In this document: piece by piece, positions 15,719 to 62,947 of the stretch | Position numbering within the stretch: the stretch's first letter is position 1 | Layout of the letters: the number at the start of each line of letters is the position of its first letter | Origin: Phaffia rhodozyma | Lineage: Eukaryota > Basidiomycota > Tremellomycetes > Cystofilobasidiales > Mrakiaceae | Assembly: GCA_014706385.1 (NCBI GenBank) | Contig: JACGZH010000004.1 | Coordinates: 1,488,001 to 1,552,000 of the forward strand | Direction: 5' to 3' | Length of the DNA: 64,000 bases | Program-made: the position numbers and the translations under genes | The notes under the pieces: model-generated | Told to the model about the DNA's origin: nothing | The model's database searches: none | Seen by the model: only the letters and a program-made list of their open reading frames with translations

Positions 15719-16061
15719 TGTTGAGAATACTTGAATATGGTGCATTGGTTTTTGCTTATCATCTATGTACCTAAGCCTTAGCTAGCGCACTCTGCCAGCT
15801 GGCATACTTCTTTTCTTCTCCTTCCTTCTTTTTTTCTTTTTCTTTTTCTCCTTCCTCAGCATTTACCATAACTGTTTCGTCGGTGCTGAGGTTGGTTTTC
15901 TCCTGTCTTTATGTTGTTAACGCTTTCCATACAAATATGCTTACAAAACGATTGTCATTAGATTACTTTATTTTAGTTTCTCAGGTTCGTTTATAAATGT
16001 AGCATTTACCATAACTGTTTCGTTGGTGCTGAGATTACTTTATCTTAATTTCTCAGCAACA
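15719..16061. repeat. LTR-like repeat R, copy 1
   Basis: It begins TGTTGAGAATACTTG and ends TTTCTCAGCAACA, short imperfect inverted ends of the TG..CA type. A closely related copy is at 32200-32564 and a decayed one at 32052-32199. It sits exactly at the junction of two oppositely oriented copia fragments and interrupts both; flanking 5-mers do not match. It could be a solo LTR of another family or a short non-autonomous element. Confidence 0.6.
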
Positions 16062-19000: not shown

Positions 19001-20115
19001 GACCGTCCGAGCGAGACTGACTTACCACGTTCACCGTTCCTTTGCCAACGACACCTAGAGACGCACCACTCGCAACGAAGAGCTCGTCGGTGTATGGCTC
19101 GTAGGTGGTGAAGAGCGATCGGTCATTGACGCAGGTCTGTGTGCAGCCAGTGTCAAGAAGGAAGGTGAACGGGTGGCTCAAGCTCGGACAGAGGAGGGAA
19201 AGCGCGTACGATTGAGGCGACTCGACTTGGTTCCGGCCGAGTACGACATTGGCCTGTGGTCTGAAGTATGTCTTGCCGGAGGAGTGTTGGTCCTTGGCGA
19301 AGCACTCGGATGTGTTGTGCCCGGATGACCGATGAAAGTCACAGTATCTGTTCGACCGAGTCTTGCCTTCGGTTGCCTTGGGGTTGTATGATCGAGGTTG
19401 TTTCGGGCAGTCAGCCGCGTAGTGAGACGACTGGCCGCAGTACAGACAATGGACCATCGGTGGAGTCACTGCCATGGCCGAGTGAGGCTGCTGGTTCTGG
19501 CAGCTCGCCATCGCTGTTGACTGTATGTCCTTGTTGTCCAGGATTCGATCGGCCACAAAGTCAAGAGTGAGCGGCCTGGGGTTCCGTGAGCGTCTGTGCC
19601 GACCTGGGCCTGTATATTGGATACCAGAGTCTCGCCGTGGATGGTCTTCGGTAATAAAATTAGGGAGCACTTTGTGATATTCTAATGGTGGAGTCATACA
19701 GACAACAATGTACTTCCAGTTTCCGAATGCCTCAATGGTGTTTCTCTCGTTGAACTAGAAAGGTTTTCTCAATAGATAGACCCGATTACTAGTTCTCTCA
19801 AACTGATTCCCTCAAACTGATACACACACAAAGTGAGCAAGTTGATTGAGAGAACCAGAAAGAAGAAGGAAAAAGAAAATAAACTAGCTACTGTATATAC
19901 AAGATCACCAAGATGCAAACGAAAGAGAAACGAGATGGAAGCAAGATAGAAAGAAAGTAGAACGGAAATGAAACGAGACAGAAGTGAGATAAAGATGATG
20001 TAGAAAAATAGAAATAATGTAGAGATGAAATAAAATGTTGAAGGAGAAAGCAAAGAGATAGAAAAGTGAACCAACTCGCATCACTTTACGGTTGATGTCT
20101 AGACTGCTATATCCA
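16062..20115 (-). mobile_element. Ty1/copia element, family B, with a 1.2-kilocodon open frame
   Basis: The minus-strand 5' LTR is at 20115-19818 (TGGATATAGCAGTCTA to TGTGTGTATCA), followed by a leader and one open frame from 19697 to 16053. In order: a shortened gag, a CCHC knuckle (CLYCGQSSHYAADC), retropepsin (LLDTGCTQTC), GAG-pre-integrase (LLHRRMGH), integrase (HTDIQGP, IRSDNGGEY, TPQQNGKAERTNRT), reverse transcriptase (KARWVARWFEQ, RQGDVNTAFLYA, LMIYADDFVVAG) and RNase H (YTDSDHVGD, NQGAIA). The frame has no premature stop, so the copy is young. The 3' end is lost: the frame breaks after HLTAN where repeat R begins, and no 3' LTR is present. Confidence 0.88.
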
Positions 20116-20129
20116 ATACTCCCACTCAG

Positions 20130-21796
20130 TCGACGATATCAAACGGAAAAAGGAACGAAAGGAAACGAAAAAGAATGAAAAGAAACGAGAAAGAAACGAA
20201 AGAGATCGGAGGAACGACGCAAGAGATGTCGAGGAATAAGTTCGAGACCAATCGCGGAAAATAAACGAGTGAATAAAATCAAAAAATCAAGCAAGAAAGA
20301 GATGAGGAAATAAACCAGGACGAAAACAAGAACAGGAAGATGAGAATTTAGTAGTAAAAAGAACAGAAAGAACAGAAAGAACCGGATGGAATCGGAAAGA
20401 GAACACCAAAAGATCCTTGTCTGGTCGACAAAGAGCAAAGATTGAGGATGCAAAGTGGTGAGCTTTTCTGGACTGGGCTGGAAAACAAACAAAAATTGAC
20501 TTGGAGAATATCTTCCCTTTTCACCCTGTTTCCTTTCTTCCCTCAGATCAACACAAGTCCCCCACCGACATCTTATCTCCCACCGTCTCCCACTATCTCC
20601 CACTATCTCCCACTGTCTCCCGCCACCTTTCCAGCTGCCTGCCTCATCATCTTCTTCTCCCGTCTCCTTTCAGCCCTCAGCCTCAGGATCTCCTCTCGGT
20701 CTCTCTCGGTGTCGGTCTCGGTCTCTCCCATCTGATGAGGTATGTCTTCTCCCACTGGAACGGCTATCTCGCCGTCGAGGCCCATCGCTGACCTGAACTT
20801 CTCGTATTTCTTTCGTGGCAGTGCTTTTGTCCCGATGTCGGCCACCATGTCGTCCGTTCGGATCCCGACGACTCGGATGGTCCCTTCCTCGACCTTCTCT
20901 CGGATAAAGTGATAGCGTACGTGGATGTGTTTCGATCTGGAATGGGTGTCTGGGTTGTTGGCTAACGCGATCGCTCCCTGATTGTCTTCGTAGATCCGAG
21001 TCGGCTCCATCGTCGTCACGTCGAGTGTTCCTGTCGGATCGGCCATGAAAGCAAGCACTTCCCGCAACCAGCCGACTTCCTTCGCTGCCATAGTAAGTGC
21101 CACGTATTCCGCTTCGCATGTCGATAGCACTACCATCGCTTGCTTCTTTGACGCCCAGCTGACCGCTCCTCCGTTTACCATCGCCACATAGGACGAGTGA
21201 CACCTTCTATCATCCACAACTGAAGCATAGTCTGCATCGGAATACACAGCAAGTGAGTGTACGGCTGTTCCATAGGTCAGCGAAAGAGCTTTGGTGGACT
21301 TAGCATAGGTCAGTACTCTCTGCAGAGCTTTCCAGTGTCTTGGTCCTGGGTTGGACGAGAACGATGCCAGTCTGGACACGGAGTATGCGAGGTCCGGCCT
21401 GGTGACCATGGTGAGCCAAAGGAGTGAGCCGAGAAGGCTGACATACGGCGTGTCCTTCATTTCTTCCTCCTCCTCAGCGTTCTTCGGTGACATCTCCTTT
21501 GAGAGATCGACAGACACCATGCCGGGTGTCCACACAGGGTATGTCTCCCTGTCTTCGAACTTCTTGACCATCTCTTCGATGTATGGTAGCTGATCGATGC
21601 TGACCGTGCGTTTGGTTCTGTCCCTGGTGACTCTGAGTCCCAAACAGAAGGCCATCTCGCCCATGTCCTTCATGGTGAAGTGAGACTCGAGTTCCTTCTT
21701 TACATTTCCCAACAATCGGCCACCCTTTTCGGCAAACAAACCGAGATCAACAACATATACTGCTAGATGAAGTTGTTCTCCATCTTTTCGAAGCAC
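20130..21796 (-). mobile_element. Ty1/copia element, family A, 3' portion (RT end, RNase H)
   Basis: The frame at 21796-20603 encodes the C-terminal half of a copia polyprotein. The RT active-site region reads YVVDLGLFA instead of the usual YVDD, so it is catalytically dead. GDMGEMAFCLG-type and RPDLAYSVSRLA blocks follow, then RNase H (YSDADYA, CEAEYVAL, EDNQGAIALA, RSKHIHVRYHFIRE). The 3' flank has a 10-bp tandem repeat (20575-20624). A purine/pyrimidine-biased stretch at 20130-20553 may be its decayed 3' LTR. The 5' side is cut off at 21797. Confidence 0.8.
20575..20624. repeat. 10-bp tandem repeat, about 5 units
   Basis: Units read CTCCCACTAT with one or two changes each. They lie just 3' of the family A copia frame (minus strand reading GTGGGAGATA) and could have replaced or extended its polypurine tract. 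Confidence 0.8.
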
Positions 21797-21978
21797 ATAG
21801 TGTCCGTGTTGAAATTACACAGCCGCGTTCAACGACACCGCATCCAGGTCACGTCTCATGTGGCGGGCCTGGCCACACTGCCCGGCTCACTGCCCAACTC
21901 ACTGCCTAGTCCGTCAAGTGACCATACTTTGCCGACCACATTTCTTTCTTTCCTGTTCATCGTCAAGTCCATGTGTTT
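21797..21978. other. unassigned spacer between copia fragments
   Basis: The sequence between the broken family A element and the left inverted repeat was not matched to anything else in the window. Confidence 0.35.
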
Positions 21979-22305
21979 TGCACAGCTTGCCGATGGTCCG
22001 TTTCTCACCGAATGTCGCCGTTCACATGATCGCTTTCGGCCGGAATAACTCCGCCCATCCTTCCCGGAGTGCACTCAGACCTGCACCATCATGACCGCAC
22101 AGCTGTGCTCTATCGTCCCATATCGTTATCTCATATCCTGTACTTTTTCGGCTTTCCTTCGCATTGACTCGGCTCCACCAGCCAGCTTGCTGTATATGAC
22201 TTCTTCCTTCTTCCTATCTCCTTCTTGCACCTCAGTCGTCACCAGAACTACAGTCTGGTATACTGAGTCATTCGTTCTGTATTTACTCTCGACAGAACTC
22301 TTAAT
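21979..22305. repeat. left arm of a 0.32-kb inverted repeat
   Basis: Its reverse complement recurs at 25538-25860 with very few differences by eye. The two arms flank the copia coding fragment 22344-25532. The minus strand of this arm carries a 60-codon frame (22308-22126) that is conserved almost residue for residue in the other arm. Confidence 0.85.
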
Positions 22306-22343
22306 CATATTAGATTAAGAGTCTGAGTACTCTACGAGCTAAC

Positions 22344-25300
22344 ATGCCAGATCCCATTCTTTCCACAGTGGGAGTGGAATCGACACCTTCTGAGGTCTCA
22401 CTTTATCGAGAACTCAGAAGCAACACACTCAGTAATATTATCCCCCTACCAGCCCCACATACTTCACAAGTCAACTACAAGATGTGGGAACGCCGCCTGG
22501 AATCGGCTCTGTTCGAGATGCGTTTGTGGGATCTCGTTTCTGGAGTACGATCCAGACCAAACGTGGCGTATCCCAAGGCACAAGCTGCCTGGGATCTTGA
22601 CGACCAAATCGCACGCAACTTCATCATATCTGTTCTCACAGACTCGGAGGGAGAGCGCATAAGTGAGTGTCTAACAGCTCACAAACAGATCGAAGTCCTT
22701 CGATCTGTTCATATGCAACAAGGCACCGTCGGTGTTTTTCAGGTTCTCAGCTCCGTCTGGAATATACGCTCCGAGACGGCTCCGAGTCTTCAAAGCCATG
22801 TCGACCATATCGGTCGACAACTTCATTTGACTGAACAGATCGCCGGCAAAACCATGACATACAATGAACTCTATGCTCTCATTCTTATCCGATCTTTACC
22901 CACTACCGCTCACGGACAATCCTTCGTGGCCAGCTTACCTGCTTTGGCAGGCAATGATGCTTTGGGTCATCCCAACCCATTAACATATGAATTCGTTTCT
23001 GGAGCCATCCTCCGCGACAAGCAACTTCGGAACACAACCAGGGCACTTCACAATAGCCGTGAGTCAACCTCTGCACTTGCTGTCACTCCTTCCAGTCCAC
23101 AATGTTCGTACTGTGGGGACTTTGGCCACTTTGCCAAAGCCTGCCCAGACAATCCCATCTCACAGACTGGAAGGAAGAGTGACAGTAAGTACAAAGCCAA
23201 GAAATTCTGCGACTTCCACAAGTCTTCCGGTCACAATACTTCAGAATGTTACGCAAGAGATCGACTTGGTTCAGGCAAAGGGACACCTCGTCCCCAAGCA
23301 AACTCCTTGTCGGCTCGAGATCCTGACGAGAATGACCAAACGTACGCTCATTCTATCATTCCACAGAATTTGTATCCCTCGTTCACCTTCCTTCTTGACT
23401 CTGGTTGCACACAGACTTGTGTCAGCGACAGATCCCTCTTCAGCACTTACGAGACCTACTCCGACGAGCTCTTCGTCGCGAACGGTGCTTCTCTGAGTGT
23501 CGTCGGGAAAGGAACGGTGAAGGTGGTTAGCAAGTCCTCTGTGGATGGTCAGGATATCGATGTTTTATTGAGTAATGTTTGGCATGTTCCAAAACTATCA
23601 TCTACCATTCTCGTTTCGCTTGGTCAGATATGCGACGTTGATGGTATCACCTTCAGTGGAAACAAGAAATAGATCTTGATCAGTAATCGTTCTGGTGTCA
23701 TTCTCACTGCCTCTGCGTACAGCAAGAATCTTTGGGCTTTGGATGTCACAGTCCGAACCCCGAATCTTGCTGCCTCGCTGGTTTCAGAACGAACTGAGAA
23801 AGAAATCGACTTGTTACACCGGAGGATGGGACATGCTTCTCTTACTTCTATGAAATCTCTCATGACATGTTCTGGTTTCTACAAGACAAAGGTGACACCG
23901 GAAGATCTGAAACACTACTTTGATAGAGGCATATGTGCACCCTGTGTCGAATCCAGGCAGCACAAAACACCCTATCCGACATCAAACACAGTCCATCTCT
24001 CAACCACTCCAACTCATTCACACCGATATTGATGGTCCCATGCCTCATGTGTCCTTCGGTGGAGCACGCTACATGCTCACCATCATCGACGAGTTCACTG
24101 CTTACCATTGGGCCTGGTCGGTCCATCAAGCTCAAAAGCGATACGGCATCCATCATCAAAGATTGGATCGCAAAAGTGGAAAGAGAGACCGTTTACAAGG
24201 TCAAGACAATTCGTAGTGACAATGGAGGTGAATATCTTTCAAACGACTTTGTCTCGTGGCTCGAAACCAAAGGTATCAAACAAGAAACATCGATAGCAGG
24301 AACTCCCCAACAGAACGGAAAAGCAGAGAGAGCAAACAGAACGATCGAAGAAAAGATCACTGCTCTTCTTGTCGAGTCCGGTTTGCCAGGTTCTTTCTGG
24401 GCAGAAGCTCTTGTCTATGCTATCTACATACTTGCCCGCACCGTTCGCAAGGCGAGCGGGCGGACAAGATATGAAGAGTGGTTTGGAAAACCACCTACCT
24501 TTGACCGACTTCGTGTTTTTGGCTGTACTGCATATGCGCACAACCCGAAACATAGAAAACACGAGTCAAAGTCAGTTTCTTGTTTGTTCCTTGCCCCATC
24601 AGAAGACACATTTGGAAAGAAGGCTTACCGCTTAGTTGACAAGCAGACCCTTCGAAAAATCATCTACTCCCGAGACGTCGTCTTCGACGAAGCTTGGACA
24701 AAACGATCAGAAGCGGAAGCTCATCACAGTTCCCAGTCAGACAAAGATGTCGATTGCAAGTCCAATCGAACGTCGTCCAATCCATATGAGAAACACAGTG
24801 CCTGACTCATATCTGACTCAGGATACACTCGATGATGAGCAATCGCCTATGACGGATGAGATCCAAGCAGACACGGAAGTAGAAACTATTGAACAAGACG
24901 CAGAACATCAGTTTGTGCAGTCTGAAGATGAAGAAGAAATTCCAGAACAAGAATGTCAAGAAATGCGAGACTTACGCCGATCACCTGTACATGAACGAGT
25001 TTCTCCGCCGCCGATCGTTCCCCGCCGCTCAGCTCGCCTGTCCCGAATCTCGAGACCAGTAGAGACATGTCCACAAGCAACCATTCTTGTGGATATTGGT
25101 TCTCGACTCCTCCCATCTCAGCCGCCAAAGACTTACAGACAAGCCCTTGGCGGGCCGTTTCGAACCGAGTGGGAGCTGGCCATGAGGGCCGAGCTTTCCC
25201 AGTTCGAAAAACTCAAGGTATGGACCTTGAGACCGGTCGATGATCCGGAGACGCAGGTTATCTCCGGTCGATGGGTCTATACCTGTGGGCCAACGTCAGA

Positions 25301-25532
25301 CAAAAACACTTGTAAGTTCAAGGCTCGCTGGGTTGCTCGTGGATTCGAACAGCTTGACGGCACTTACGGAGACACATACTCGCCCGTTGCAGACGGTACA
25401 TCCCGACGCATCTTTCTGTCGATCATAGCAAACGAGAATCTCACAATCAGACAGGGCGATGTGAAAACAGCACTCTTGTACGCAAAACTGGACAAACCGA
25501 TTTTCATGACTCCGCCACCAGGATATTATTAA
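22344..25532 (+). mobile_element. Ty1/copia element, family B, decayed gag to 5' RT
   Basis: The ATG at 22344 opens a 442-codon frame: gag, a CCHC knuckle (CSYCGDFGHFAKAC), a second Cys/His block (CDFHKSSGHNTSEC) and retropepsin (LLDSGCTQTCVSD). A single TAG at 23670-23672 ends it, and the frame resumes at once with ASAYSKNLWALD and LLHRRMGHASLTS. A frameshift near 24030 leads into integrase (IRSDNGGEY, TPQQNGKAERANRT) and another near 24750 into the start of RT (KARWVARGFEQL, RQGDVKTALLYA). It stops at TPPPGYY, before the YADD box, where the right inverted repeat begins. No LTRs of its own were seen. Confidence 0.85.
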
Positions 25533-25866: not shown

Positions 25867-26125
25867 TGGATGTAGCAGTCTAATCATCAACCACCGAGTT
25901 TTGCGAGTTGGTTCACTTTTCTATCTTGTCGGTTTCTCCTTCAGCATGTTATTTCACTTCCCTCTCGTCCTATTTCTTGTCCGTTCAGTTTTATTTCCAT
26001 TCTACTTTATTTCTATCTCATTTCTGTATTGGTGATGTTGTATATACAGGACTTGATTTGTTTTTTTATATTCATTTATTCCTTCTGGTTTGTCTCTATC
26101 AAGATACTCACTTTATGTGTGTACA
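25867..26125 (+). repeat. solo LTR-like element related to copia family B
   Basis: It begins TGGATGTAGCAGTCTA and ends ATGTGTGTACA, with internal blocks shared with the LTR at 19818-20115 (for example AGTTGGTTCACTTTTCTAT). No adjacent internal region continues from it. Confidence 0.65.
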
Positions 26126-29100
26126 TTTGGTCGAAAAATCAGTTGTTCAAAAATATCAGGATTGATCAATTGTATCGTCAACTTCAGAAACCAAGGAATG
26201 ATGTTTGTGTCGTGCATACACCGTCTTCCCCAAATTCGATATCATCATGTGGTTTGTGATTCCAGCATTATCCCTCGAGCGTCTCTATTGTCGTATACCT
26301 TTTCATTATTTGCTTCACTGAATGATCGTGCTCTGCTTTTTTTTGACCAGTTCATCTCTGACGGACACTTTTTCTTTAATTTTTCTTTTTCTATTCTAAC
26401 TTTGTACTTCCGTTATCCTGGCCTTTGAGTCCTTTTTTTAAACCTGGAATATAGTCATTACATACATATCGTGAATGTGGGGAAAATCTTCTAAAGATGC
26501 AAACCGACTTCAAATAAGGTTCTGTCTGAAGCAGGTTTTTCAATCTTCCACTCAAAATGAATTGCGGCGTGTGTCAAGATCAAAACTTCAAAAGAAATGT
26601 CATCAATCAAGTGATCTGTCAGGACTGCGAATTCATCATATCGTGAAGAGAGTCATAAGAACAAAATTTCCGAATGCTTTTCTCGATGTGGAGTTTTCAA
26701 GAAGGTATCATCGAATTGTCAAGATCTTCAACTCTTTTTACAATGTTTGTGTTTATGAGATATAATTTCTTTCTCAGACCTTGAGCTTTTCTTTATGAAC
26801 CGGCTTGATCCGCATCCGTCACCATTTCGTAGTCCAAGAGTCATGTTTTCATCAACTCGATAGAAAGTATTTCGTTTTGAAGCTTTGTTCATTGTATTGA
26901 GTTCAGGATTAACACGCACAACGATATCATTTTTACAAGTTCTATTATCAACACTAATCCCATGTGGTATGTGTTTTTTAAACGAGATATGTGTCATGAT
27001 TCTCTGATTCTAGTTGCTTAATTATGAAGTCGGACGTCAGTGGGCAGTGATTTATCCGTTTTCATGTTTTCTTCCCATTGCATATTCATCAATCTTTTAA
27101 TTTCTATGAAATTTGCCATCCGAACATCAGTCGGCTCTGTTCATGTGGACTCGGCAGAAAACTTTCAGCTCAATGAACTGTTAAAAACTGAACGATGTCG
27201 TCTATCAATCTGATTTATTGGCATTTTGTTGTAAATGTGTGAATACAGATTGAATTCCAAAACTAATATTCTCTATAAGTTCACTCCTTGATCTACATGC
27301 CTCATTGCTGTTCAAATCTTGCCTCCAGATAAAAATGATAAGCTCATATTTGAAATTTATTCATCTCGTTTATATGTCAATATCTATTTTGTGACACCAA
27401 CTGGGAATTCGTCAAATGTATATTTCAATTTTGATCATAGGTGAAACTTGAGGTCGATCAACAGCTTGATGTCATAAAACCATGCAATTATCATGCTCTT
27501 ATTATACAGGCTGAATCAGATGTGCTGAATTTGACGTAGCTAGTTGGACTTCTATCACTCCAACTCATTCCGTATACGGGAAATCAGCTACATTCCATTG
27601 ATGTCAGACATTGTGTGATTTGTGGACCCAGTACTCATTCAGAGCAGATGTCCAGCAGCACTCATGCTCTATAAGTGGTGCAAAATTTTCGATTCAATTT
27701 AAGGGCTTACAACAGGAGAGACTGACGACTCGGTTCCCAATCTTTGTTTGTCAATCTGACAAACTGCATCTCAATTGAGCTAATGTGTAACCAAATGAAC
27801 TTGACAAACTCTTCGTGGACTGTGTAGCTTTTTAAGCTAAATTGACCACAACTAATCACCGAAGTGTAACAATTGACGAGGCTAAGAGCTTCAATCAAAT
27901 GACTGGGCTGAGTACTGCATTTTGTTTATCACAAAAAAAAAATAATCAGCACGAGGTGCATAAACTTCTATCCTTGTTTTCAATTGTTTCACCTATCAAA
28001 AAACAGGATTGTTCGCAACAGTCCTTTTTAATCGTCTCTGAAGTATTCTGCTGTTATGTACAAATTGATGGAGTAAATGTGATTCTAATATATCCAAAAT
28101 TGATTTGAGAGTCAACGACTGCCCAGAGTGTGATTGACGTAGAATAAAGGCTTAGCATTGTCTTTCGTTCATACTTAAACCAAGACTTCGATATCATTGA
28201 CACACTTTTGATACAAAACATGTCTAGAACGACTCCATGTCGATCGAGATATGTTTGGAAAATTTCACAAAACTGTGTATACTCATGTCATCACATACTC
28301 CGTATATATCACTTCCCATACAGTATCTTCAATGAGTAAAAATACACATCTAAGATTACAAACACCCGTAGATCGACTTGAAAAAAAATGTATGAGCTTA
28401 TTTGTTCTTACAGCAGTAAACCCATTGATATCAAAGGCATTATAACACAATCATATCAGACAATATGAAGATGTGGAAGAACGGGAAAAGGGACAATAGT
28501 AGCATTTTATTTCTTCGTCCAAAACCTTCATGTGAGGATACTTGGTTGGTCGGGAAGTTCAGCGACTAACTCCCAACGCAGAATATCCATCAGTTGTAAA
28601 AGCTGATACTTCTGAGATCAAGGATAAAATATGCATGCATTTGAGATGTAAGTACATTATCAATTAGCTATGATAAACTGTGTAATTACAACCGTGTAAA
28701 AAGAACCCTCAATCGAAAAAAAAATTGCAGAAAAAAGCGATATATACTGGGTCAAAATTAGACAAGGTGACTACGAAATTCAGTCAAAGTTGATGTTACG
28801 CCAAAATAAACATTTTTCCTCACGACTGAGATATCTATATGAGCAAACCTGAGTTCATGTTTGTCGTTATGTTGAAAGCTTCCTTTTTCTCGAACGTTAT
28901 ACATCAAGGTCAGCCTTATCAGACCTTCAAAAGTTCAAAACGCGGAGTATAAAAAGACAATTTTACCTTTTGGTGTATTCTTCACTTTAAGATAAAATTC
29001 ACATGTCCAAACACATATAAATCTCGATTTTTGCTGATCTTCGGTGTTTAGATCATGTATGAGAAGTCGTTGTGTTAGATGGTTTGGGTCAACGATTTCA

Positions 29101-32051
29101 CAACAAAAGTAAAAGAGAATCGTATGCAGAGTGCTAAGTATGTATCGGGTCTGAAGAATTAATCTTTTAGTCAATAAAAGATGTAGTATAAACAGACCTC
29201 AAACATTCTGAGTACTATATATTTCGACCATTATGGACAATTTTTTCTCCTGGCCAGATGGTGAGACAATAAGAATGTACCATGAGCTTCGGGATGATTC
29301 AATGATAGGAGACAGCAGAACATGCTACTTGTGTTCATCAAGGTCTTATACGCAAATGAAGATTGATAACACAAGGAGAATTGTTTTTGTTCGAAACAAT
29401 CGAACATAATACTCATTTGATGGCAGCTGCTGTAGATATTTTGTTTAGCATACTTTTGATCATGAACTTGAAGCTGCAAATAAAACTCCAAACCTTAGAA
29501 TATCCGTATATGAAACACTGATACCCAAGACGTTGTGTCTACTCACAGATTATGATTCAAATACGGAACAGATCAAATTTTTTACAAGAATGCTACAAAA
29601 ACAAAGCATCTGGAAGCAAAATCGGGGGTTAGCCCTTGCTCAAAAGAAAATAACGTCACGCATGATCAATCAAAAATTGGGATCAAACTCAGGTTTTATA
29701 ACGCTGATGAACCACACAGTTTGCTTAAACAAAATGGACATTTTAGATATATAGTAGATTTTTACATCATGATGAATCAGAATATTACCAATCTAAAAAC
29801 ACAAACTGTGCATGAGGAAACTCTTGGAACATGACATATCAGGTCTGCCGTCTGATAATGACCGTTGCAAGTCGGTAGGTGATTTCTTCTTTTCGTTTTC
29901 TTTTTCAAACCATTTTCAAAGTTTCACTTCAACCTTCCTTCCAATTCATTCTGATCTAATCTTGCCCGGTTATGGGAATGTACCCACCGCTACGGTACTT
30001 TATATATCGAAGCCTTGCAATTATTTAATATATTTCTTTGTTGTCGAATCAACTTGTTTTGCTCTCCACTTTGTTGAGTCTATTTGCTTTGCCTCTACAG
30101 TAATGGTTGATCTAAATGATTACATTCCTTTGTCTTGAGACTATCAATTGATTGCAGAAAATGAACCGAACTGTCAACAAGACAATTGAATTAAGCGAAC
30201 CAGAAAAGAAAGACGTACTACACGAGTAAAATGAGCATATCGCCCAAACATTCAAAACCATGAACTGTAAAATGAGGTCATTCTTGATTAGATCAAAGAT
30301 ACTATGTATCATTGAAAGTTCTGTTCTTCAGAGAATTCGGCAAGACCAACACAGTGAAGTATGGTTTTCCAGGGCAGGCGATATTTTTGTTTGAATCATC
30401 AGCATTGTTGAATTCCACTGAACAGGAACTTTAGACAACGAGCTTTCAAGGTAGATAAGGGACTTTGTATTTGTTCACTTCACTGACTTTACAATATCGT
30501 TTAACTTTTGGCTTGAGTGTGAATAGTGATGAGTTTTGTGTTTGCAGTATAATGATTCGGCTCATGAAATGTGATTTGAGCATAGAACTTGATCTTCATT
30601 GTTTACAATTTTGATACCTACAACTTAGAGAGATATGCTCAGATCAATATCGCAGATCAAAAACATCATTCTTTCAAGCATTATCAGAATGTGCATATTC
30701 ATTTCGTTGAAAATGTTAATGAAACAATCTGCCGGCAAAGACGAAGAAAGGTTAAACATGGTGTAAATTACTCATATTGTCATGGGACGTGTGACCATGA
30801 ATCGATAGAATTTGGAGTCAGCAGCAGTATTTACTTGAATCAACCTATTCTACTTCAAGTTTGTGATATAGCGTACATATGTTCATTCAGAAACTCAGCG
30901 ATCATTCTCATATCAAAACAGGCTCTGTATTATCATACATTCTCCTTTGTTTATTTAAACTCAAAAGCAAGTTGAGCAAAGCCACGCATTTGACATATCC
31001 TTTTAAATCAGTCGAAATCCGATACATTTGCATAAACTCATCGCTTGATTTGAGATCGCTTCATACCTCGTCAGACCTGAGCTTCAATTACATGTTAGAA
31101 TGCAGTAAGGACATAGAAATCATTTGCAGATATGATGTTCAGCTTTGATTCATTAGGAGGAACGCCGTGTTCCGCATCGTTTTGATTATATTGATTTCGC
31201 TCAAGTCACCATCGTCAACCATGTTTTTTATGCATGAAGAAAACAACACATGGAAATCTGCTCAGAGGAACTCTTCCTTCTCATGTGCTATCCTTTCGAA
31301 GTAGACCCAAACTCAGTAGCTTAACAAGTGACCTGTCTGCCATGTAAGTAAAAATTTCACTAACCATTTCATTTGCAGTATATTGTTAGATGTGCCTGAT
31401 CTCGGGCACTGAACTTGATAGAAGAGAGGTATGATCGAAGGCAAGTGTTATATATATATAATTGATTGGACAAGCCCTCTTTGATGTACAATTGAGTGTG
31501 GAGTATATAGTTTTTCTCATTCAAACCAAATCCTCTTCGACTGCCTTATTGAGCAGATCACACTAAATGATATCGTTCGCGTTTCACAACATGATGATAA
31601 CTCACGATTCTCAACATTACAACTTTGTTAGACTTTCGACAAGAGCACTATGGAGTTTCGACTTTTAGAAGTTTTTGAACAGTTATCGAATGGTGGTACG
31701 AGTTTATGAATCAAATTCGAGGAGTAACTAGATTCAAAAATACATAAAAGTCCACAGACCAAGGACAATTATGATGAATTTTCAATAAGCAGTTTGACCA
31801 TACTGTGGAAAGGAACATAATGAACTTGACTGAAGGAGTTATATAAAGGTTTAAGACAAAAGATAATCATCAAAAAGTACAAAGAAAAACAGCAGTACAG
31901 TAATTGTTTCTCCTTGCTCACCAGGCAGAGATGAAACAAAGAAAAGGGGGGGAAGAAGCACAATGAAGGTGCATATAAGATCTTGAAGCTCGGACAGTAG
32001 AAGAACTATTTGTGAACATAGCATGCAGACGCATGAAACGTTGACAATTCT
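26126..32051. other. AT-rich gene-free core, about 5.9 kb
   Basis: This is visibly more AT-rich than both flanks and holds only short frames with no recognisable protein motif, no clear splice-linked exons and no tRNA. No tandem satellite was seen by eye. It is flanked by copia LTR sequence on the left and decayed repeat R on the right. It may be heavily mutated transposon DNA, centromeric core DNA, or both. Confidence 0.6.
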
Positions 32052-33393: not shown

Positions 33394-36300
33394 TCACGAC
33401 GACGAACGACGCATCTGATTCTGCAATCCGAAAGCGTGTTGTTGGACGGCAGCGCGTTTAGCAGCATTGATGGCAGACGTGGGATACTTAGCATAGAATT
33501 CCAAGACGGTAGGGTCATCATCCATCAGTTCATCGTGAGAGATCCACTGATCTTCGCTCGCATCGTATCCTTCCCATCGGATAAGAAACTGTAGCCGTCT
33601 TCGGAAGAGGCGAGATTTCAGTATTTTCTCGACATGCCATAGCTTATCACCATCATCAGCGACGATCGGGTCTGGAGGTGGGGCTATCTGTCTTGCTGGC
33701 AGTGTATTGGGATAGTACCGTTCGAGAAGGGATACATGGAACGTCGGATGGATATGCATGGTCGATGGGAGAGCCAGTCGAAATGCAGAATTGCCGACGG
33801 CTCGAATGATCTTGAAAGGACCAAGTAGCTTGAAATCGAGTTTGTCACTCGGACGGTCAGTTTTTACATTCACCCGCTTGAGAAGCACTAGCTCGCCTGG
33901 CTTGAATGGAGGTGCTGGTGTTCTATGTTCGTTCGCATACTTTTCCTGGAGATCTTGTGCGATCGACATGCCCGAACGACAGAACGCTAGCGTCTTTTGC
34001 ACATGCATCACATGGTCCTGGGCGGCTGGGTTTGGTCCCTCCCGGATGGTGGCTGAGAAACGGGGATGGTAGCCATAGTTAGTATAGAGTGGGGTGATGT
34101 TAGTTGTGGTGGAGATCGTGTTGTTATAAGAGAACTCGGCCAACGATAATCGTTGTGACCAGTCGATCTGTAAATAGTCAGTGTACGCTCGTAAGTACTG
34201 TTCGACGACCGAGTTGATCCGTTCTGTCTGTCCATCCGTCTGTGGATGGAACGAGGTGGAAAGGTTCTGCTTGATATCAAGCTGTGAGCACGCCGCACGC
34301 CAGAACGCGGAAGTAAACAACGTGCCTCGGTCGGAAACAATGTCTTTCGTTAGGCCATGAAGTCTGTGGATGTTTTTCTCAAACAGCACGGCAAAGTCAC
34401 TGGCCGAGTCGGTCGTCATACAATGAATAAGGTGTGCCATCTTGGTCAGTCGACAGACGACGACGAGGATGGCATCCAGCCCGTCTGACGCAGGAAGATC
34501 AACGATGTGGTCAAGTGAGATCGAAGTCCAAGGTCGGTCTGGAACAGGCAGTGACTGCAGAAGACCATACGGCCGATGCCGGCGAGGTTTCGATCGTTGA
34601 CAGATATCATAAGAACGAATGTAGTCTCTGACGAACCTGGATATGTTCGGCCAGTAAAAGTTGCGGGACAACAGTTCGAGCGTCTTGTACCGACCGTAGT
34701 GACCCGCTGAGGGGTGGTCATGACACTGTTTAAGAATGTCAGTCTATAAGTCTTGGTCATCTGGAACATAGACCAAGCCTTGATATAAAATTAGTCCGTC
34801 AGGCTCAAGAGTGAGTTTCTTGAGTTGTTTTGTCAACTGGACGGGAGCTTGACGAGAGGGGTTCTTGAGAAAAGGGAGGAGTTCGGTCAGATAGTTGTCA
34901 GTCTGATAACCTGCTTTCACGCGAGTCGCAATATCCGACGTTGCGCTATCCGTAATATTTTCCAAGGCATTTTCTGGGTTATTGTCTGCTGAGTCTTCCA
35001 TGGCCCCGTCCGTCTCGAAAGGTGATACCTCGACTGGTCGTAGCAGCAACTGGGGAGCCTCGTCAGATGCTCGAGCGTTACCCCCCTCTGTATAGTCGTG
35101 CCGTCGAGTGAAAGCACTTACTTTGGTGTTTTTCTTCCCAGGACGAAAGTTAAAGACATACTTGTACGAGTTCAGCACCATCGACCATCGTACTTGTCGT
35201 CTGTTGAGCATTTTGGTCGAGTGGAAGTACTGCAGGTTTTTGTGGTCAGAATAGATCTGGATAGGATGCTGTGATCCCTCAAGATCGTGTCGCCAGACCT
35301 TGAAGCTATCGACGATCGCCAACAGCTCCTTGTCATAGATCTCATAGTTACACTCAGCTGGGTTCATCTTCCTCGAGTGGAACGCAATCGGCCTAGACCT
35401 TCCATCAGTGTCTGGCTGCGAAAGAACACCTGCGATAGCAAAGCTTGAAGCATCAGTTTCGAGTGAGATCGGCTTCTCTGGGTCAAAGTGTGCTAGCACA
35501 GAGGCCGAGGCAAACGAGTTCTTGAGTGTCTCGAACGCCTTTCTTGCACTTTGGTCGAATGAAAACCGCACATCCTTCTTCCGCAGTCGAGTCAGTGCGA
35601 CACAAGTACGAGAGTAGCAAGCAATGAACCGCCTGTAAAAGTTGGCGAAGCCCAGGAAGGCTTGTAGTTGTTTGATCGACGTCGGCTCCGGCCAGTCAAG
35701 CACGGTTTGTACTTTACCCTTGTCCATCGTGACGCCGTGGTCAGACACCACAAAGCCGAGAAACTCATAGTGATCTGTATCAAACTCGCACTTTTCGAGC
35801 TTGGCGTACAGTTTATGATCCCGCAGGCGAGACAGCACTTCTTTGACATGTTCTTCATGCTGAGAAGGGTCAGCAGAAAAGATCAGGATATCGTCCAGAT
35901 ATATGATGACAAAGTCGTCTAGTAGATCCCGGAAGATGTCGTTCATAAACTCCTGAAACGTTGCAGGCGCATTGGTAAGACCAAAGGGCATGACGAGCGA
36001 CTCAAAGTGTCCATAGCGAGTGCGAAACGCCGTCTTCCACTCGTCTCCCTCCTTGATTCTTACCAGATTGTATGCGCCTCGCAAGTCGAGTTTGGTGAAG
36101 ATACGAGCTTGACGGAGACGATCGATTGATTCACCGATCAACGGCAAAGCCGCATGGTTCTTGATGGTGATACTATTCAGCTTTCTATAATCCACACAGA
36201 GACGCAGACTGCCATCTTTCTTTTTCACAAACAAGATCGGTGATCCGGCAGGCGACTTCGAGGACCGGATAAAGCCTTTTGCAAGGTTCTCGTCCAGCCA

Positions 36301-37180
36301 TTCCCGGAGTGCAATCAGTTCAGTCTCGGACAGAGTGTACAAGGCCCCAAAAGTGGGACGTGTGTTAGGTTCTAGCTCGATCGAATGATCATACGGTCTG
36401 TGAGGCGGTAGTTTGTCAGCTTCCTCTTTGGAGGAGACGTCTGCAAGCTGCATATATTTTGATGGAACTGTCGAGGACGTGACCGAGGTGACAGGAATGG
36501 AAGATGAAGATAAAATATAATTAAGAGCAGCGTTTGTGTTTGAGGCCGGTCCAGATGTTAGTTTTGAAACACACTTAGTCTGACAGTCAGTTGGCGTTTT
36601 TGGATCAGAAACGGGAATCGGAATGGAAACAGGGTGGTTGGGAGATTGATGACGAGGGATGATGATGTTTTTGTTATAATCAATATCAGGATTGTTTTTT
36701 CGATGCCATGGAACACCCAAGATCACTTCGACCGAAGAGATCGCAGCCAGATGTAAGGACACCGACTCAGTGTACTTCCCGAGCCCAAGCTCGCCAGTCA
36801 CGATGGAGTCAATCGGACCGGTCGTCAACGGCGTCCCGTCAACTGTGACCGCCTGACGAGGAACAGGAATGGAACGGACTTTGCAAGCAAACTCGTCAGC
36901 GAACTTGTTTATAAGCTTGGTGTCGATTAAGTTGAGCTGTGAGCCAGAATCCAGCAACACCCGTACAGAAATTGGTGTCTTGCCGATGAGCAAGGTGGCC
37001 GAGAGAATGACTCGTCTTTCAGCGCTTCTCACGGAGCAGTCGGAGATAAAGAAGCGAGGTGGATCAATATGTGGAGAATCAGCATGGGAAGACTCAGCGT
37101 AGGAAAAATCAGCGTGGGAAGGATCATCAAGGGATGAATCTCTAAAGAGATTCACAGTTTGTTCTGCAAGAAAGAATAAT
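33394..37180 (-). mobile_element. Ty3/gypsy chromovirus, pol intact except one stop; gag missing
   Basis: The frame 37155-34744 encodes protease (VLLDSGSQLNLID), reverse transcriptase (RLCVDYRKLNSIT, FVIIYLDDILIFSA) and RNase H (LETDASSFAIAGVLS). A single TAG at 34746-34744 follows DQDL. The same frame then continues through integrase: zinc-finger HCCC-type region, DHIVDLP, VSDRGTLFTS, FHPQTDGQTERINS. It ends with a chromodomain (VEKILKSR, LQFLIRWEGYDASEDQW). Gag and a 5' LTR are absent: the open frame starts just before protease. Chromodomain elements are known to be guided to heterochromatin in other fungi, which fits this location. Confidence 0.88.
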
Positions 37181-37508
37181 TGTATTCTAACTCAGCACAC
37201 AAACAGTCTTCTGTGAATACTGAGGAAAGGAAAAAGAAGAGAAGAGAAAAGCAAAAGAAAAAGAAAAAGAAGAGAAACAAAAGTGTCGAGCACAGATATA
37301 AGTGAGAACCCAACGTGCTTGGATAAGAAGAAAGATAAGAAGAAAGAAGATAAGACGACACTAAGAGAAACAGCCAGGATGGAAGAAGATATCTGCCAAG
37401 ATGTTGACTGAGACAGAATCAGTCGAAGATGAAACAGAAGGATTGTAGGAAATAAACCTAACATACTGAATTCGAACGAATCATTCCAACACTCATCACC
37501 TAAAGATG
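37181..37508. other. spacer between gypsy fragment and LTR-like repeat
   Basis: Purine-rich and without a gene. It could be a residual leader of the gypsy element or of the element that owned the adjacent LTR-like repeat; this could not be decided. Confidence 0.35.
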
Positions 37509-37853: not shown

Positions 37854-37949
37854 GGCCGTTTGGCGGAGTGGTCTAACGCGGTAGCCTTGAATTCAATTTT
37901 AGATAGCTACTCTTCTCTGAAGGCGTAGGTTCAAACCCTACAGCGGTCG
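37854..37949 (+). tRNA. tRNA-Ser (anticodon UGA) with a 13-nt intron
   Basis: Class II tRNA: acceptor GGCCGTT/AGCGGTC, anticodon stem GTAGC/GCTAC, anticodon TGA, long variable arm CTTC-TCT-GAAG, T stem GTAGG/CCTAC. The anticodon loop is split after position 37 by a 13-nt intron (37892-37904), the canonical eukaryotic position. A T-rich terminator follows. It marks the right edge of the retroelement block. Confidence 0.93.
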
Positions 37950-56895: not shown

Positions 56896-57273
56896 GTCGG
56901 GCGATGAAAAGGACGAAATGTTTGGAATTTGATGAAGAAAAAGAGAAGAAGTTCAGATAGAATTGTCGATGGGGGAGAGAAAGTAAGAGAAGATAGATGG
57001 AGGAAGGCGTATGGTTACGCGTGTGATCACGCGTGTGGTAACCGATATGAATAAACACGTGATCTGTGTTACCGTGTTCATAGGCTACTTCCAAATCTGG
57101 GACTTGACCCAAGAGAATGGTGACTAACCGGCGTATCCACTTACCGCTCGTTTTTTTTCTACTCTCATTTCGACAACTTTCTTGATCAGCCACTCCTTAC
57201 AGTTTCGTTGTCGGTCTCTCCTCTCTTTCGTTTTTCTTTTCTCTTCCTACACCCAGGAAGGTTTCTTTCAGGG
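56896..57273. promoter_or_regulatory. bidirectional SEY1/MTO1-SUV3 promoter
   Basis: The 378-bp divergent intergenic region contains two ACGCGT boxes (57017-57022, 57029-57034) inside an imperfect palindrome 57013-57043, and one CACGTG (57056-57061). ACGCGT is the MBF (MCB) site in yeasts and CACGTG is bound by bHLH factors such as Cbf1 or Pho4; use of either site here is inference. Confidence 0.55.
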
Positions 57274-60200
57274 ATGCGGATGATTTTACGCTCCGTTCCT
57301 CGGATTCCTCCACCTAGACTGTGCATTCCGTCGCTCCGATCGGGCTATTCCATCGTCCCTTCTCTCTCCTCTCCGCTTACTTCCGTTGCTGATCCCATCC
57401 CGCCATCATCCACTTACGACGTGCTCGTCATCGGCGCTGGACATGCAGGATGTGAAGCTGCGGCAGGTGCTGCCAGATCAGGTGCCAAGACCGTCCTCAT
57501 GACCCAAAGACTGGATACTGTTGGCGAAATGAGCTGCAACCCTAGTCTCGGTGGCGTAGGAAAGGGCACGCTTGTCCGAGAGGTTGATGCACTAGGCGGA
57601 CTGATGGGCCAAGTTGGAGGTGTGTCCCAAAATTCCTTTTCCTTAGACGCGCTTATATAAAGGCTGACTGTTGTTCTTCATTCTTTCTTTTAGATAAATC
57701 GGCCATCACATTTCATCTTCTAAACACGTCGAGAGGACCGGCCGCTTGGGGCTACCGCGCGCAAATGTCTAGAATTCAATACAAGCGCCATATGCAGGTT
57801 GCCTTATCCAAAGTCAACAACTTGGATCTCAGGCAAGGCTCAGTTCAAAATATTCTCTGGGAAGATGATGGAGATCAAGGGAAGAAGAAAATCACAGGTG
57901 TTGTACTAGGTAAGCCTTAGAGTCAGGGCCATACGATGTTCTGACAATTATATTATGGCTAACCTGAATGCAACCGTCCATTACGCAGAGTCGGGTCAAA
58001 CAATCAACTGTTCTCAGGTGGTCATATGTACTGGCACATTTCTTGGTGGAGAGTTCGTCGCACACACACTTTTTCTCTAACGATATCAATATAGAAGGGC
58101 GATCTTGTTCACGTTGTATCTGATCTCTACATTTATAGAATCCACCTGGGTCTCGATTCCTATCCAGCTGGTCGAATATCTGAACCCCCTTCGTCCCCGT
58201 CCCTTTCTCAGTCTCTCCGATCAATGGACTTCTCATTGGGTCGACTGAAAACTGGTACACCGCCTCGTCTGGACGGGAAGACCATCAACTATTCTACTTT
58301 GGATACACAACAACCTGACGGATTGAATAGTCGCGCGTTTAGCTTCTTGCACGAAGGTAGAAATGGACTTGCAGAAGCTGGGGTAAATTTGGAAAATCAA
58401 ATTCCGTGCCATCTGACGTATACCTCCGAGGAAACCAGTCGGATCGTCCGCGACAATCTTCACTTGTCTATACATATCAAAGAAACAGTCCGTGGACCGA
58501 GGTACTGTCCTTCTATAGAGTCCAAAGTGATCAAACACCCCGAGCTTAGCTCGCATCGAATTTGGCTCGAGCCTGAGGGTTACCCCGAAGAAACTGGTAC
58601 TTGCTCGTTTCAAAGAATGTGGCTTATAGATGGACAAGTACTGATATCTATACCAACCCATCTATTCGACACTTGTAGATTTAGTATACCCAGCAGGTTT
58701 ATCGGTTACCATGCCTGCTGACATCCAGGAACGAGTGCTTAAGACCATCAAGGGACTTGAGGAGGTCAAGATGGTCAGCCCTGGCTATGGTGTTGAGGTG
58801 TGCTCACCTTTCGTTCCTTTTTTATTTGCAAGTGCGCAAGAAACCCTAATTTTGATTCATCTTTTTTCTTTATTAGTACGATTATGTTGATCCTAGAGAA
58901 TTGAACACAACACTTGAAACTAAACGGGTCACGGTATGTCTTCTAGCCTCTGTTTAGGCATATCTTATAGAATCTAAACCGGAAATGTCTTGTTTGGTTT
59001 GTTTGGATGCCAATATAGGGCCTCTTCCTAGCTGGCCAAATCAATGGAACGACTGGATACGAGGAAGCCGGCGCTCAGGGCTTAGTGGCTGGAGTGAATG
59101 CAGGCTTGGCAGCTCAAGGTATCACTTTCTAATCTTTCCTTACGACATCATGTATGTATCATCTCTTGGAACGTTATTTCTGATCCCATACATTTGAATT
59201 CACTGTTCGTGTAGGCAAACCTCCGATGGTTCTCAGCCGTTCCGATGGGTTCACTGGGGTGATGATTGATGATCTAACTTTAAGAGGAGCGACCGAACCT
59301 TGTATGTATCTTAACATGTCGTCTCGGCGGCTCTGTATAGATTGAATCTCTGATGTCCTTGGTCCTCGTGATGCTTTTATAGATCGAGTGTTTACGTCTC
59401 GATCAGAATTCAGAATCTCTCATAGGGCTGATAACGCTGATCTTCGTTTGACACCCAAGGGTATGTGTTTTCAGCCGTGTTCTGCGACGCTCAACTGAGA
59501 CAGCCTAGAGATCAGGATTATTTAATAGCATATGCGTGTGTTTGTTACTTAATCACAGGTTACGCACATGGAGTTGTGTCTGAAGAACGATGGGAACGGT
59601 TTTTGACCCTACGATCGGAGATGGAAGTCACTAAACGACTCTTGAAGGAGACCACATTTGCTAGCCGAGAGACTGATGTTCAGCCCAACATATCCACAGG
59701 CAAGAAGACGTACGTTTGTTCCGTATTCTCTATACCTTCACACCGGAGACTTGTGATAGCATTCATGTGGGAATGCTTCGCTTATCGAACCATGTGCTTT
59801 ATTCTGGTTGGCGATAAATCCAGTGCATGGGAGCTGCTAGGGCCGGCAGACTCCTCTCGCTCAGACGAGAGTATTTATACTTCCTTCCCTGAGCTGGCCT
59901 CAATGGAGCCTATCGTGCGGGATCGAGTAGGAATAGAGAGTGAGTTCGATGAATACCCATTGGTCTTACGGAAGTCCCTTACTTCAGGACATGTTCAATT
60001 TGATTTTAATCTCGCCAATATATCTACTCTATTCTCCGAAACAAAGAACTATACGAGAATACTCTATTGAGACAAGCAGAAGAAATCAGCAATTTCAATA
60101 GCGAAGAAGACTATCTGATTCCCTCTGAACTGGACTACACCTCTATCCGTGGTCTGTCGGACGAGGTCAAAGAAATTTTCATTCGATCGAATCCAAAATC

Positions 60201-60360
60201 GATAGTAAGAAAATTTCATGTAGCACTCTTGTTCAACGTATCATCATCTTACCGCTGTCTCTTATGAATCTTATTTTACAAACAGGGAGTTGCAAAGAGG
60301 ACGCAAGGCGTTACTCCTATGTCCATCCTGCTTCTGATGAGTGAAATTATGAAACTTCGA
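57274..60360 (+). CDS. MTO1: MTO1/GidA tRNA-modifying flavoprotein (joined in frame to SUV3)
   Basis: Exons: 57274-57619, 57694-57909, 57989-58052, 58139-58596, 58679-58797, 58877-58933, 59019-59118, 59215-59301, 59383-59460, 59559-59709, 59824-59939, 60047-60204, and the start of 60286-61811. It begins with a basic presequence. The FAD-binding site is [12 protein letters not shown] (residues 52-63). Family blocks follow: [86 protein letters not shown] and RTQGVTPMS near residue 660. With MSS1/GTPBP3 this enzyme makes the 5-carboxymethylaminomethyl group on mitochondrial tRNA U34. About 675 residues, the usual length, are reached at 60360, but there is no stop: the exon runs on into the SUV3 homologue. 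Confidence 0.92.
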
Positions 60361-62947
60361 GCCGTATCCTCGTCAAGAATCTCTATACCCGACCATTCAT
60401 TCAAGTCTACGACTTCATCTTCATTCACAACAAATCGACCGTCCTTTATCGGCAATTCCTCTTCGCATCTCAAGACTGCACCGTCAGTTCGTGCCTTCTC
60501 GACGTCCCTACCGCTTGCTTCAAAACACCGAAAACGTTCTTCTGATCAAGGAGGGAGAAAGAAATATAACCCATATCCTTCACGATACCAAGGCAGTTTC
60601 CGAGTTCCGCCGGTCGAAGTTGCACCAAGGCATGCACCATCCACCAAACCCGAGGATATGCGGGCTTTGCTGCTAGATGCTCTTCAAGATATCGACGATC
60701 CGGATAGTCGACTGGTCAGGCGGCTTAAAGAACTACAACTTTCTTCGGCAGATGCTGTTACTATTGCCAAAAAGTTTGCCGAAGAAGTCAAACCAGAGCT
60801 GGAAGAGGACGCTTACATTGATACTTGGCAGTCGACTTGGGAGATTCAATCGCTTCGTCTGGATTTTGAGAATTTTTATATCGATTCTCGTGGCCAGTCT
60901 TGGGATAAGGCTATCCAAATCTGCTTGATGCATCGATTATTAGACTGGGCATCTGCAATCCATTTAGGCGTCACCGTCACCACTCACTCTGGAGTTTCAC
61001 TCGCCGCCATCCAGCAGTTGTACCGAGTTGCTGTTGCGACCGACTTTCGAAACCCAGCTGATCGATATCCGGAGGCCCGAGCTTTGAAACGACAGATCCA
61101 TCTTCATGTGGGACCAACAAATAGTGGAAAGACGTATAATGCCCTTCAAGCGCTTATCAAGAGTAATCGAGGATTCTACGCTGGTCCACTGAGACTGTTA
61201 GCCCACGAGGTTTGGGAAAGAGTCAACCGAGGGGATATTGCTGGGATGAATGGTGTCGGCCGGTCGTGTAACCTAAAAACGGGTGAAGAACTTCGAATTG
61301 TCGATCCGCTTAGCACATTGTCGAGTTGTACGGTAGAGATGATTAATCTTGGAACCGAGATCTCGGATGTAGGTGTATTAGACGAGATCCAACTCATCGG
61401 AGATGTCAATCGAGGAGGAGCCTGGACTTCTGCTGTTCTTGGCTGTTGCTCTAGGGAGCTTCATCTTTGTGGAGAAGACACCACGGTCGATCTTATCAAG
61501 AGGATAGGGGCCGAAACTGGAGACGATGTCATTGTTCATCGGTACAAGCGATTGGCGCCTCTTACGATCAGCGACAAAGAGCTTGGTGGCTGGAAGAACA
61601 TCAGGAAGGGAGACTGTGTCATTGTTCTTAGCCGAAACGGTATTTTCAAGACTAAGGATGAGATTGAGGCGGAGACCGGGTTGAAGTGTGTGGTTGCGTA
61701 CGGGATGTTGCCTCCAGAAGTTCGATCCGCTCAGGCTAAAATCTTCAACGATCCGGACAGCGATTATGATGTGTTAGTGGCAAGTGATGCGATTGGTATG
61801 GGACTAAACCTGTAAGTTCCATCAACCTGACTCTAAAAAAGAAACCGTAGTTGTACATCCCTCACCCTGAGCGAATATATTTGGGCATTTCTCTTGTTTG
61901 AACAGTGTTATCAAACGAGTTATCTTTACTTCATTAACTAATTACCTTGGGGAGCCTCTTCGAACGTCTCAAGTTAAGCAACTCGGTGGACGAGCCGGTC
62001 GATTCGGTCTTCATGGGAAGGGGGTCAGTGGCGAGGTTACTACTCTAAACGCTGAAGATTTGCCGATCCTGCATGAGGTCTTCCCTTCCGAGATTCCTCC
62101 TATAGAGCGAGCTCGACTTGGGTTCCAAGCTTCCGATATAGCGAAGCTTTACCGAGTGCTAGGTCATGATGTTCCTCTGGAGAGGATCGTCACGCTGATC
62201 TCCGAACTCGCACGAACAGGGCCAAACTACATCATTGAAGACCCCAAGACTATCCAAAAAGTTGCGCCCATTATCGATCGATACGGGGCGGATCTCAGCT
62301 TGGAGCAGAAATTGCTGATCGCTGATGCTCCGGTGAACCTGAGAGATCCGCTGGTGGAGTACTGGTTTGCCCAGTTTATCACCGCGCATGCGGTGGGCAA
62401 GCGAATTTCTGATCTCAAAGGTCTGCTTCAGACGGGCACGTTGATCGAGACGTTTGAGCGACTTAAAGTACGACACGCTACGTTCCTCAATGATCAGTAT
62501 ATCCTCGCTGAAGGTTCGGCCAAACCGAAATCGAGAACTGTAGAGATTACGTCGAATGAGGTTGCTCAGTTGGAACTTCTTCACAACATCACTACCGCTT
62601 ATAACTGGCTCTCCTTCCGACTACCGTTAACGTTTTGTAAGCCGCAGGAGGCGAGAGCGCTTCAGGCAGAGCTAGAGATTTTGTTGGACTTTGCGCTTGA
62701 GCTCGTTGGCGGTCCTCTTTCTAACGCTGGTAAGAAAGGTCAAGGCGGCAGAGGAGTGAAGAAGGGCTTGATGGCGAAGTTGTCGATGAGACAGTTGGAA
62801 GCAAAGCAGCTGGCAAAGGATTTGGCCGAAGAGAACAAGATCAAGTTCTATCGACCCGGTGACGAGGAAGATTTGAAGAACCGGGCCCAGTTAAACCAGC
62901 TTCCTATCTCTAGTGCAGAAGTGGAGAAGCTTTCGAGCTTGATGTGA
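60319..62947 (+). CDS. SUV3: SUV3 mitochondrial RNA helicase (no stop between it and MTO1)
   Basis: Exons: (60286-)61811 and 61906-62947. As a separate protein, starts at 60319 or 60349 would give 844 or 834 aa. The Ski2-like helicase core has GPTNSGKT (Walker A, about residue 255 from 60349), LDEIQLIGD (DEIQ box, about 345), VASDAIGMGLN and QLGGRAGRFG (motif VI). A SUV3 C-terminal domain follows, then a lysine-rich tail (KGQGGRGVKKGLM). Upstream of the core are a Ser/Thr-rich linker with presequence-like RAFSTSLPLASKHRKRS and the SUV3 N-terminal helical region. SUV3 unwinds RNA for the mitochondrial degradosome. Whether it is made as its own transcript or as the C-terminal half of an MTO1-SUV3 polyprotein is the key uncertainty. 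Confidence 0.92.

Follow-up and report, generated by a model that had tools for sequence, protein, structure and literature searches.

Does a basidiomycete yeast make two of its mitochondrial RNA enzymes as a single protein? The question is raised by a locus of Phaffia rhodozyma, located in a stretch of 64,000 nucleotides (nt) of contig JACGZH010000004.1 (assembly GCA_014706385.1, positions 1,488,001 to 1,552,000 of the forward strand; hereafter the window), where homologues of MTO1 and SUV3 follow one another in one spliced reading frame. An earlier note on this DNA, made from the letters alone, had offered three explanations: a fused enzyme that is cleaved at an internal presequence, a shared gene with an internal start for SUV3, and readthrough with alternative ends. 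Our analysis favours the first. We consider it likely that MTO1 and SUV3 lie end to end in one gene, and that a single precursor is imported and cut in the matrix by the mitochondrial processing peptidase (MPP).

One spliced reading frame with two enzyme halves

Rebuilding the splice model from the sequence gave 14 exons and 13 introns, with a coding sequence of 4518 nt including the stop codon and a product of 1505 amino acids (aa) without internal stop; the intron number and both lengths agree exactly with the earlier note, which put the product at about 1505 residues. The frame runs on the plus strand from the ATG at 57274 to the TGA at 62945-62947, and the mass of the precursor would be about 166 kDa. 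All 13 introns are of the GT-AG type and have lengths of 74-114 nt. As nine of these lengths are not divisible by three, the open frame depends on the introns being spliced out. The exon that had been described as starting at 60286, holding the end of MTO1 and running stop-free into SUV3 was likewise recovered: exon 13 (60286-61811) carries the MTO1 end and remains open into SUV3 over 508 codons. The coordinates of the various parts are collected in Table 1.

The first half of the protein was recognized at full length by the curated MnmG equivalog model TIGR00136 (mnmG_gidA), with residues 48-669 covering model positions 1-610 of 616 (expectation value E 3e-207) at a score of 689.8 bits, versus a cut-off of 524.85. 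The Pfam families found in this half were PF01134 (GIDA), PF21680 (the first C-terminal helical domain) and PF13932 (the C-terminal bundle, residues 613-668). Moreover, for five of the seven listed MnmG chains in the PDB the alignment reaches residue 669-673 of the Phaffia protein and stops 2-10 residues short of the chain's own end (for instance, 639 of 649 for 3cp2 and 635 of 637 for 2zxh); the remaining two are shorter (8zu0 ends at 612 and 3g05 at 597). The motifs GAGHAG, SCNPSLGG and GPRYCPS (residues 328-334 for the last) were all found, and we take the first to bind flavin adenine dinucleotide (FAD) and the other two to fulfil the cysteine roles. By these matches the half is a complete MnmG/MTO1. 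It is like the known members of the family in the near-full match to the model and in having the FAD motif and both Cys motifs, but unlike them it has no stop after the C-terminal helix, and the frame runs on into SUV3. As follows from the family, its product would act in the modification of the wobble uridine U34 of transfer RNA (tRNA) together with an MSS1/MnmE partner.

The second half contains the SUV3 domains in order and all above the cut-off, namely PF22527 (the DEXQ-box domain DEXQc_Suv3, residues 907-1070, E 3.7e-57), PF00271 (1090-1193), PF18147 (1278-1321) and PF12513 (1380-1424). It aligns with human SUPV3L1 (E 4e-91) and with the Suv3 chain 6f4a_B of the PDB (E 2e-83), and holds the Walker A (GPTNSGKT), DEIQ and motif VI (QLGGRAGRFG) sequences, whose roles in this half are presumably those that their names imply. 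On this evidence the SUV3 half is complete as well. The likeness to SUV3/SUPV3L1 extends over DEXQc_Suv3, Helicase_C, Suv3_C_1 and SUV3_C, the difference being that the putative presequence is here situated inside a longer protein. Family membership predicts the product to be an RNA helicase for RNA turnover.

The introns are distributed very unequally between the halves. Twelve are located in the MTO1 half and one in the SUV3 half, though the latter accounts for 55% of the coding sequence; under a uniform distribution of introns such a split has a probability of 0.0005. The unequal density fits two genes with a separate history.

Copies and partners in the genome

Two of the five CYP61 primers listed for Xanthophyllomyces dendrorhous (= P. 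rhodozyma) in PMC3552872 were compared with the genome (19.77 Mb, 15 contigs). Each matches exactly and once, and the two face one another at a distance of 2.9 kb, in accord with an origin from this species or a close relation of it. The genome was searched exon by exon and the best candidates were scored, a procedure by which short exons can be missed. Within that scope no second copy of MTO1 or SUV3 was found. More specifically, five of the six matches to PF01134 fall in this locus and the sixth, on contig C12, is weak and covers model positions 1-41 only, while the protein of exon 13 matched nothing in the genome besides itself. This locus therefore most likely supplies both MTO1 and SUV3. 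Comparison of the exon 13 protein with viral contigs and with prokaryote genome contigs yielded no relatives, as 0 of the 10 pattern-matched stretches in the former and 0 of the 253 stretches in the latter could be confirmed.

The same search was used to look for partners. It gave MnmE/MSS1-like pieces at C10:1495876-1496800, which stay under the family cut-off, and no match to the MnmE helical-domain model. The RNase II-type RNB domain was matched nine times, at three genomic sites, which may include DSS1. Taken together, the MnmE-like pieces and the RNB matches suggest that both pathways may be present, where the evidence for MnmE is partial.

The junction between the halves

The homology to MTO1 stops at residue 669-673. 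A presequence of SUV3 could begin at Met672 (60349). Since the end of the homology adjoins the possible start of that presequence, MTO1 has no stop of its own. Indeed, one half follows directly on the other in the same frame, which leaves no space for a stop, a 3' untranslated region (UTR), a promoter or a 5' UTR. The presequence-like segment that had been noted before SUV3 was found again, but of the separate Ser/Thr linker that was said to precede it hardly anything is left: with the homology ending at 669-673 and the presequence-like tract beginning at about 671-672, 'linker' and 'presequence' are one and the same segment.

The openness of the frame should not be overrated. A run of 100 stop-free codons after the MTO1 end was seen in 9.1% of random sequences with the local dinucleotide make-up and in 0.7% of those with the regional make-up, and by itself it is thus only moderately improbable. 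Stronger support is provided by the fact that the halves abut in frame, that each is complete and that no second copy was found. If intron 12 were retained, MTO1 would end at an in-frame TGA, yet it would lose its last helix. MTO1 could end alone only by an alternative splice or polyadenylation event. As for hexamers of the poly(A) type, the junction and the true 3' end look alike, with one AATATA in each.

An internal presequence-like tract with a candidate MPP site

When 1456 windows of 50 aa were compared along the protein, no more than one acidic residue was found in those beginning at positions 106-110, 117-122, 671-711 and 1152. The acid-poor run with starts 671-711 far exceeds the others in length and spans residues 671-760. 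Four sites of the form R-x-[FYL]-[AS] are present in the protein, and only the one at 719 is located within this long tract. The pattern R.F[HS]T occurs once in the 1505 aa, versus 0.017 expected. According to PMC10450427, MPP cuts most efficiently when P1'-P3' is FHT or FST, Arg is found at -2 or -3 in about 80% of presequences, and short designed MPP sites (e.g. RGGGRRAFHT) were cut in polyproteins in yeast mitochondria. The arrangement described here is like those engineered polyproteins in the cut between joined proteins, in F-H/S-T at P1'-P3' and in Arg at -2. It differs in being natural instead of designed, in having Val instead of Arg at -3, and in that the cleavage is a predicted one. 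The tract between the halves looks presequence-like and holds an MPP motif of the described preferred type.

Precursors of such a tandem kind are known. PMC8847149 reports that an internal MPP cut was demonstrated for Arg5,6, a tandem precursor of Saccharomyces cerevisiae, and treats Atp25 and the Schizosaccharomyces pombe proteins Etp1, Rsm22-Cox11 and SPAC22A12.08c as composite precursors that were searched in silico for MPP sites. The present gene is like Arg5,6 and these composite precursors in that two complete mitochondrial proteins share one nuclear frame, and it is like the Arg5,6 type also in combining a presequence at the front with an internal presequence-like tract that has an MPP-type site. 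The partners differ, here being MTO1 and SUV3, and here the cleavage is deduced from the sequence. The pairing of MTO1 with SUV3 would be new; in agreement with the earlier note, no description of such a fusion was found in the open-access literature, as judged by titles and the starts of abstracts.

Within a fused precursor the order of events would be as follows. One messenger RNA (mRNA) of 14 exons would be translated into the 1505-aa precursor, which would be imported on the presequence of MTO1. In the matrix MPP would remove that presequence and would also cut inside the former SUV3 presequence, between RA and FST after residue 720. The predicted products are MTO1, with some 47 extra residues at its end, and a SUV3 of 784-785 aa and about 87 kDa. 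The fusion may have originated by loss of the MTO1 stop. As stops are present in both other frames at 60335-60350, a small insertion or deletion could have joined the neighbouring genes.

Opposing evidence and alternative explanations

Several observations weigh against a fused precursor. The presence of stops in both other frames between 60335 and 60352 means that a one-base error in the assembly could create the fusion. At the candidate cleavage site the residue at -3 is Val; among the designs of PMC10450427 that had Lys at this position, the shortest were cut poorly until Arg was substituted, whereas longer ones were cut well. No amphipathic character is seen in the 18-residue windows at Met662, 668 and 672, whose moment is 0.05-0.07 versus a mean of 0.22. 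The raw codon score is -0.26 nats per codon for residues 672-697, -0.05 for 697-722 and 0.09 for 722-772. Known coding windows average 0.31 and go no lower than -0.04, and in three of the five 30-codon windows that start at 676-736 the used frame is outscored by another. The raw codon score did not bear out the junction as coding, although the composition of a presequence may account for the low values. A score restricted to synonymous choice was best in the used frame (0.021, versus -0.013 and -0.071 in the other frames). It is intermediate between random choice and the usage of the gene: it was reached by 0.7% of 5000 random draws, and 9.1% of draws with the codon usage of the gene were at or below it. 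Synonymous codon choice modestly supports the junction as coding. The GC content of the junction (0.48) is close to that of the SUV3 part of exon 13 (0.49), with 0.33 in intron 12 and 0.32 in the 3' flank, but this is weak evidence because the 5' flank is at 0.45 as well. The same caution applies to the scan for alternative splicing that could give MTO1 its own stop, which covered GT..AG pairs of 45-400 nt with the donor at 60290-60899 and the acceptor before 61100, the top 25 being examined. The best pair (60487-60688) scored 9.7 bits versus 12.0-19.7 for the 13 introns, where it should be taken into account that the splice matrices were trained on these same introns and so favour them. Hence the splice event with an early stop that the earlier note had envisaged did not emerge, as no candidate reached the weakest real intron (9.7 versus 12.0 bits). 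Its third explanation, readthrough with alternative ends, found no support in the sequence either, because the frame holds no stop to be read through and no intron candidate has the score of a real intron.

The internal start of SUV3, by which a short SUV3 mRNA would be made from a promoter in exon 12 or intron 12 next to the long fusion mRNA, fared somewhat better, and although we regard it as unlikely it can coexist with a fusion. Translation would start at Met672 (60349) or Met662/668. There is an A at -3 of Met672, and the tract from this residue onwards resembles an ordinary presequence in being basic and poor in acidic residues. Moreover, intron 12 has a 40-mer of 72.5% C+T at 60226, the best in 60050-60349, a TATAT is present at 60019 where none precedes MTO1 in 56952-57274, and the location of one of the 13 introns in the SUV3 half points to a formerly separate gene. 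The pyrimidine stretch of intron 12 is, however, weaker than the one that precedes MTO1 (0.725 versus 0.93), a comparison that is itself weak evidence because two exonic 40-mers reach 0.82 and 0.88. In any case MTO1 would still be without a stop, so that the fusion mRNA must exist anyway if MTO1 is made. Coupling of the two enzymes in one lasting protein is a further alternative, in which the MTO1 and SUV3 parts would remain connected, fully or partly, in the matrix and tRNA modification would be coupled to RNA surveillance. In its favour, each half is complete, mitochondrial RNA is what both families act on, and the end of MTO1 may tolerate a large tail; yet between the halves lies an MPP site of the described preferred type in an acid-poor tract, and we hold a stable uncleaved enzyme to be distinctly improbable. 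Very little probability remains for an error of sequencing or assembly, i.e. a missing, extra or false base that hides the stop of MTO1 in what would be separate genes that overlap or lie very close. The stops in the other two frames at 60335, 60338, 60342 and 60350, precisely where MTO1 should end, are what one would expect from such an error, but stops in unused frames are common near any given place, there is no homopolymer of at least four bases between 60286 and 60521, and even with a stop SUV3 would start within a few bases, with no space for a 3' UTR, a promoter or a 5' UTR. A fused precursor that is cleaved at the internal presequence is thus the best supported of the explanations proposed for this locus: MTO1 has no stop, no splice escape was found and an MPP-type site is present.

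Features of the locus and of the window

Table 1. Parts of the MTO1-SUV3 locus of Phaffia rhodozyma (nucleotide positions in the window; residues of the 1505-aa translation)
Feature	Position	Strand	Remarks
Pyrimidine-rich, promoter- or leader-like stretch	57144..57273	+	just before the MTO1 ATG; 40-mer at 57215 with 93% C+T
Exon 1	57274..57619	+	MTO1 ATG; Arg-bearing presequence-like N-terminus, residues 1 to ~45; GAGHAG 54-59; SCNPSLGG 87-94
Exons 2-6, MTO1 half	57694-57909, 57989-58052, 58139-58596, 58679-58797, 58877-58933	+	GT-AG introns between
Exons 7-12, MTO1 half	59019-59118, 59215-59301, 59383-59460, 59559-59709, 59824-59939, 60047-60204	+	GT-AG introns between
Intron 12, last before the junction exon	60205..60285	+	length divisible by 3; in-frame TGA 60265-60267
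Exon 13, 5' part	60286..60348	+	last MTO1 helix region, residues 651-671; GC 0.48
Off-frame stops where the MTO1 stop is expected	60335..60352	+	one frame 60335, 60338, 60350; other frame 60342; none in the used frame
Junction, presequence-like	60349..60657	+	residues 672-774; S/T- and K/R-rich in the first part; Met672 possible start of a free SUV3
RAFST, residues 719-723	60490..60504	+	candidate MPP site, cut between RA and FST after residue 720; Ser722 end after later removal of Phe
Exon 13, remainder	60658..61811	+	SUV3 N-terminal region; DEXQ-box helicase domain; GPTNSGKT 926-933; DEIQ 1016-1019
Exon 14	61906..62947	+	remaining helicase C-terminal domain, QLGGRAGRFG 1184-1193; Suv3_C_1; SUV3_C; stop TGA

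Elsewhere in the window two groups of retroelements were encountered, a copia-type cluster at 14178-23672 (matches in 3 of 3 tested frames) and, at 33394-37191, a Ty3-type element in which a chromodomain was also matched (2 of 2 tested frames). The frames 20603-21814 and 23927-25532 look like those retroelements and are candidates for the same class. Between the groups lies an AT-rich stretch (26001-32000) with 35.5-36.1% GC, versus 44.5-50% in the adjoining 4 kb on each side, which could be a centromere-like region. The window also holds two genes for tRNA-Arg (TCT), at 4065-4137 and 13220-13292, of equal score and opposite orientation. The pair sits in an inverted repeat of 88 nt with 100% identity, adjoined by a pair of 192-nt arms with 98% identity. 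A third tRNA of 96 nt, perhaps intron-bearing, was matched by Rfam and not by ARAGORN at 37854-37949, just beyond a repeat that is common to the stretch preceding the tRNA at 4065.

Implications

Gene fusion is often a sign that the proteins cooperate or have to be present in equal amounts. If true, a natural MTO1-SUV3 precursor would link the modification of mitochondrial tRNA to the decay of RNA, two processes that are usually studied apart. It would also extend, by a case from a basidiomycete yeast, the short list of mitochondrial precursors that are thought to be cut by MPP in the middle. Should the enzyme instead stay uncleaved, wobble modification would be coupled to helicase-driven RNA surveillance or to the turnover of introns, and undermodified tRNAs or their transcripts might be handed straight to decay.

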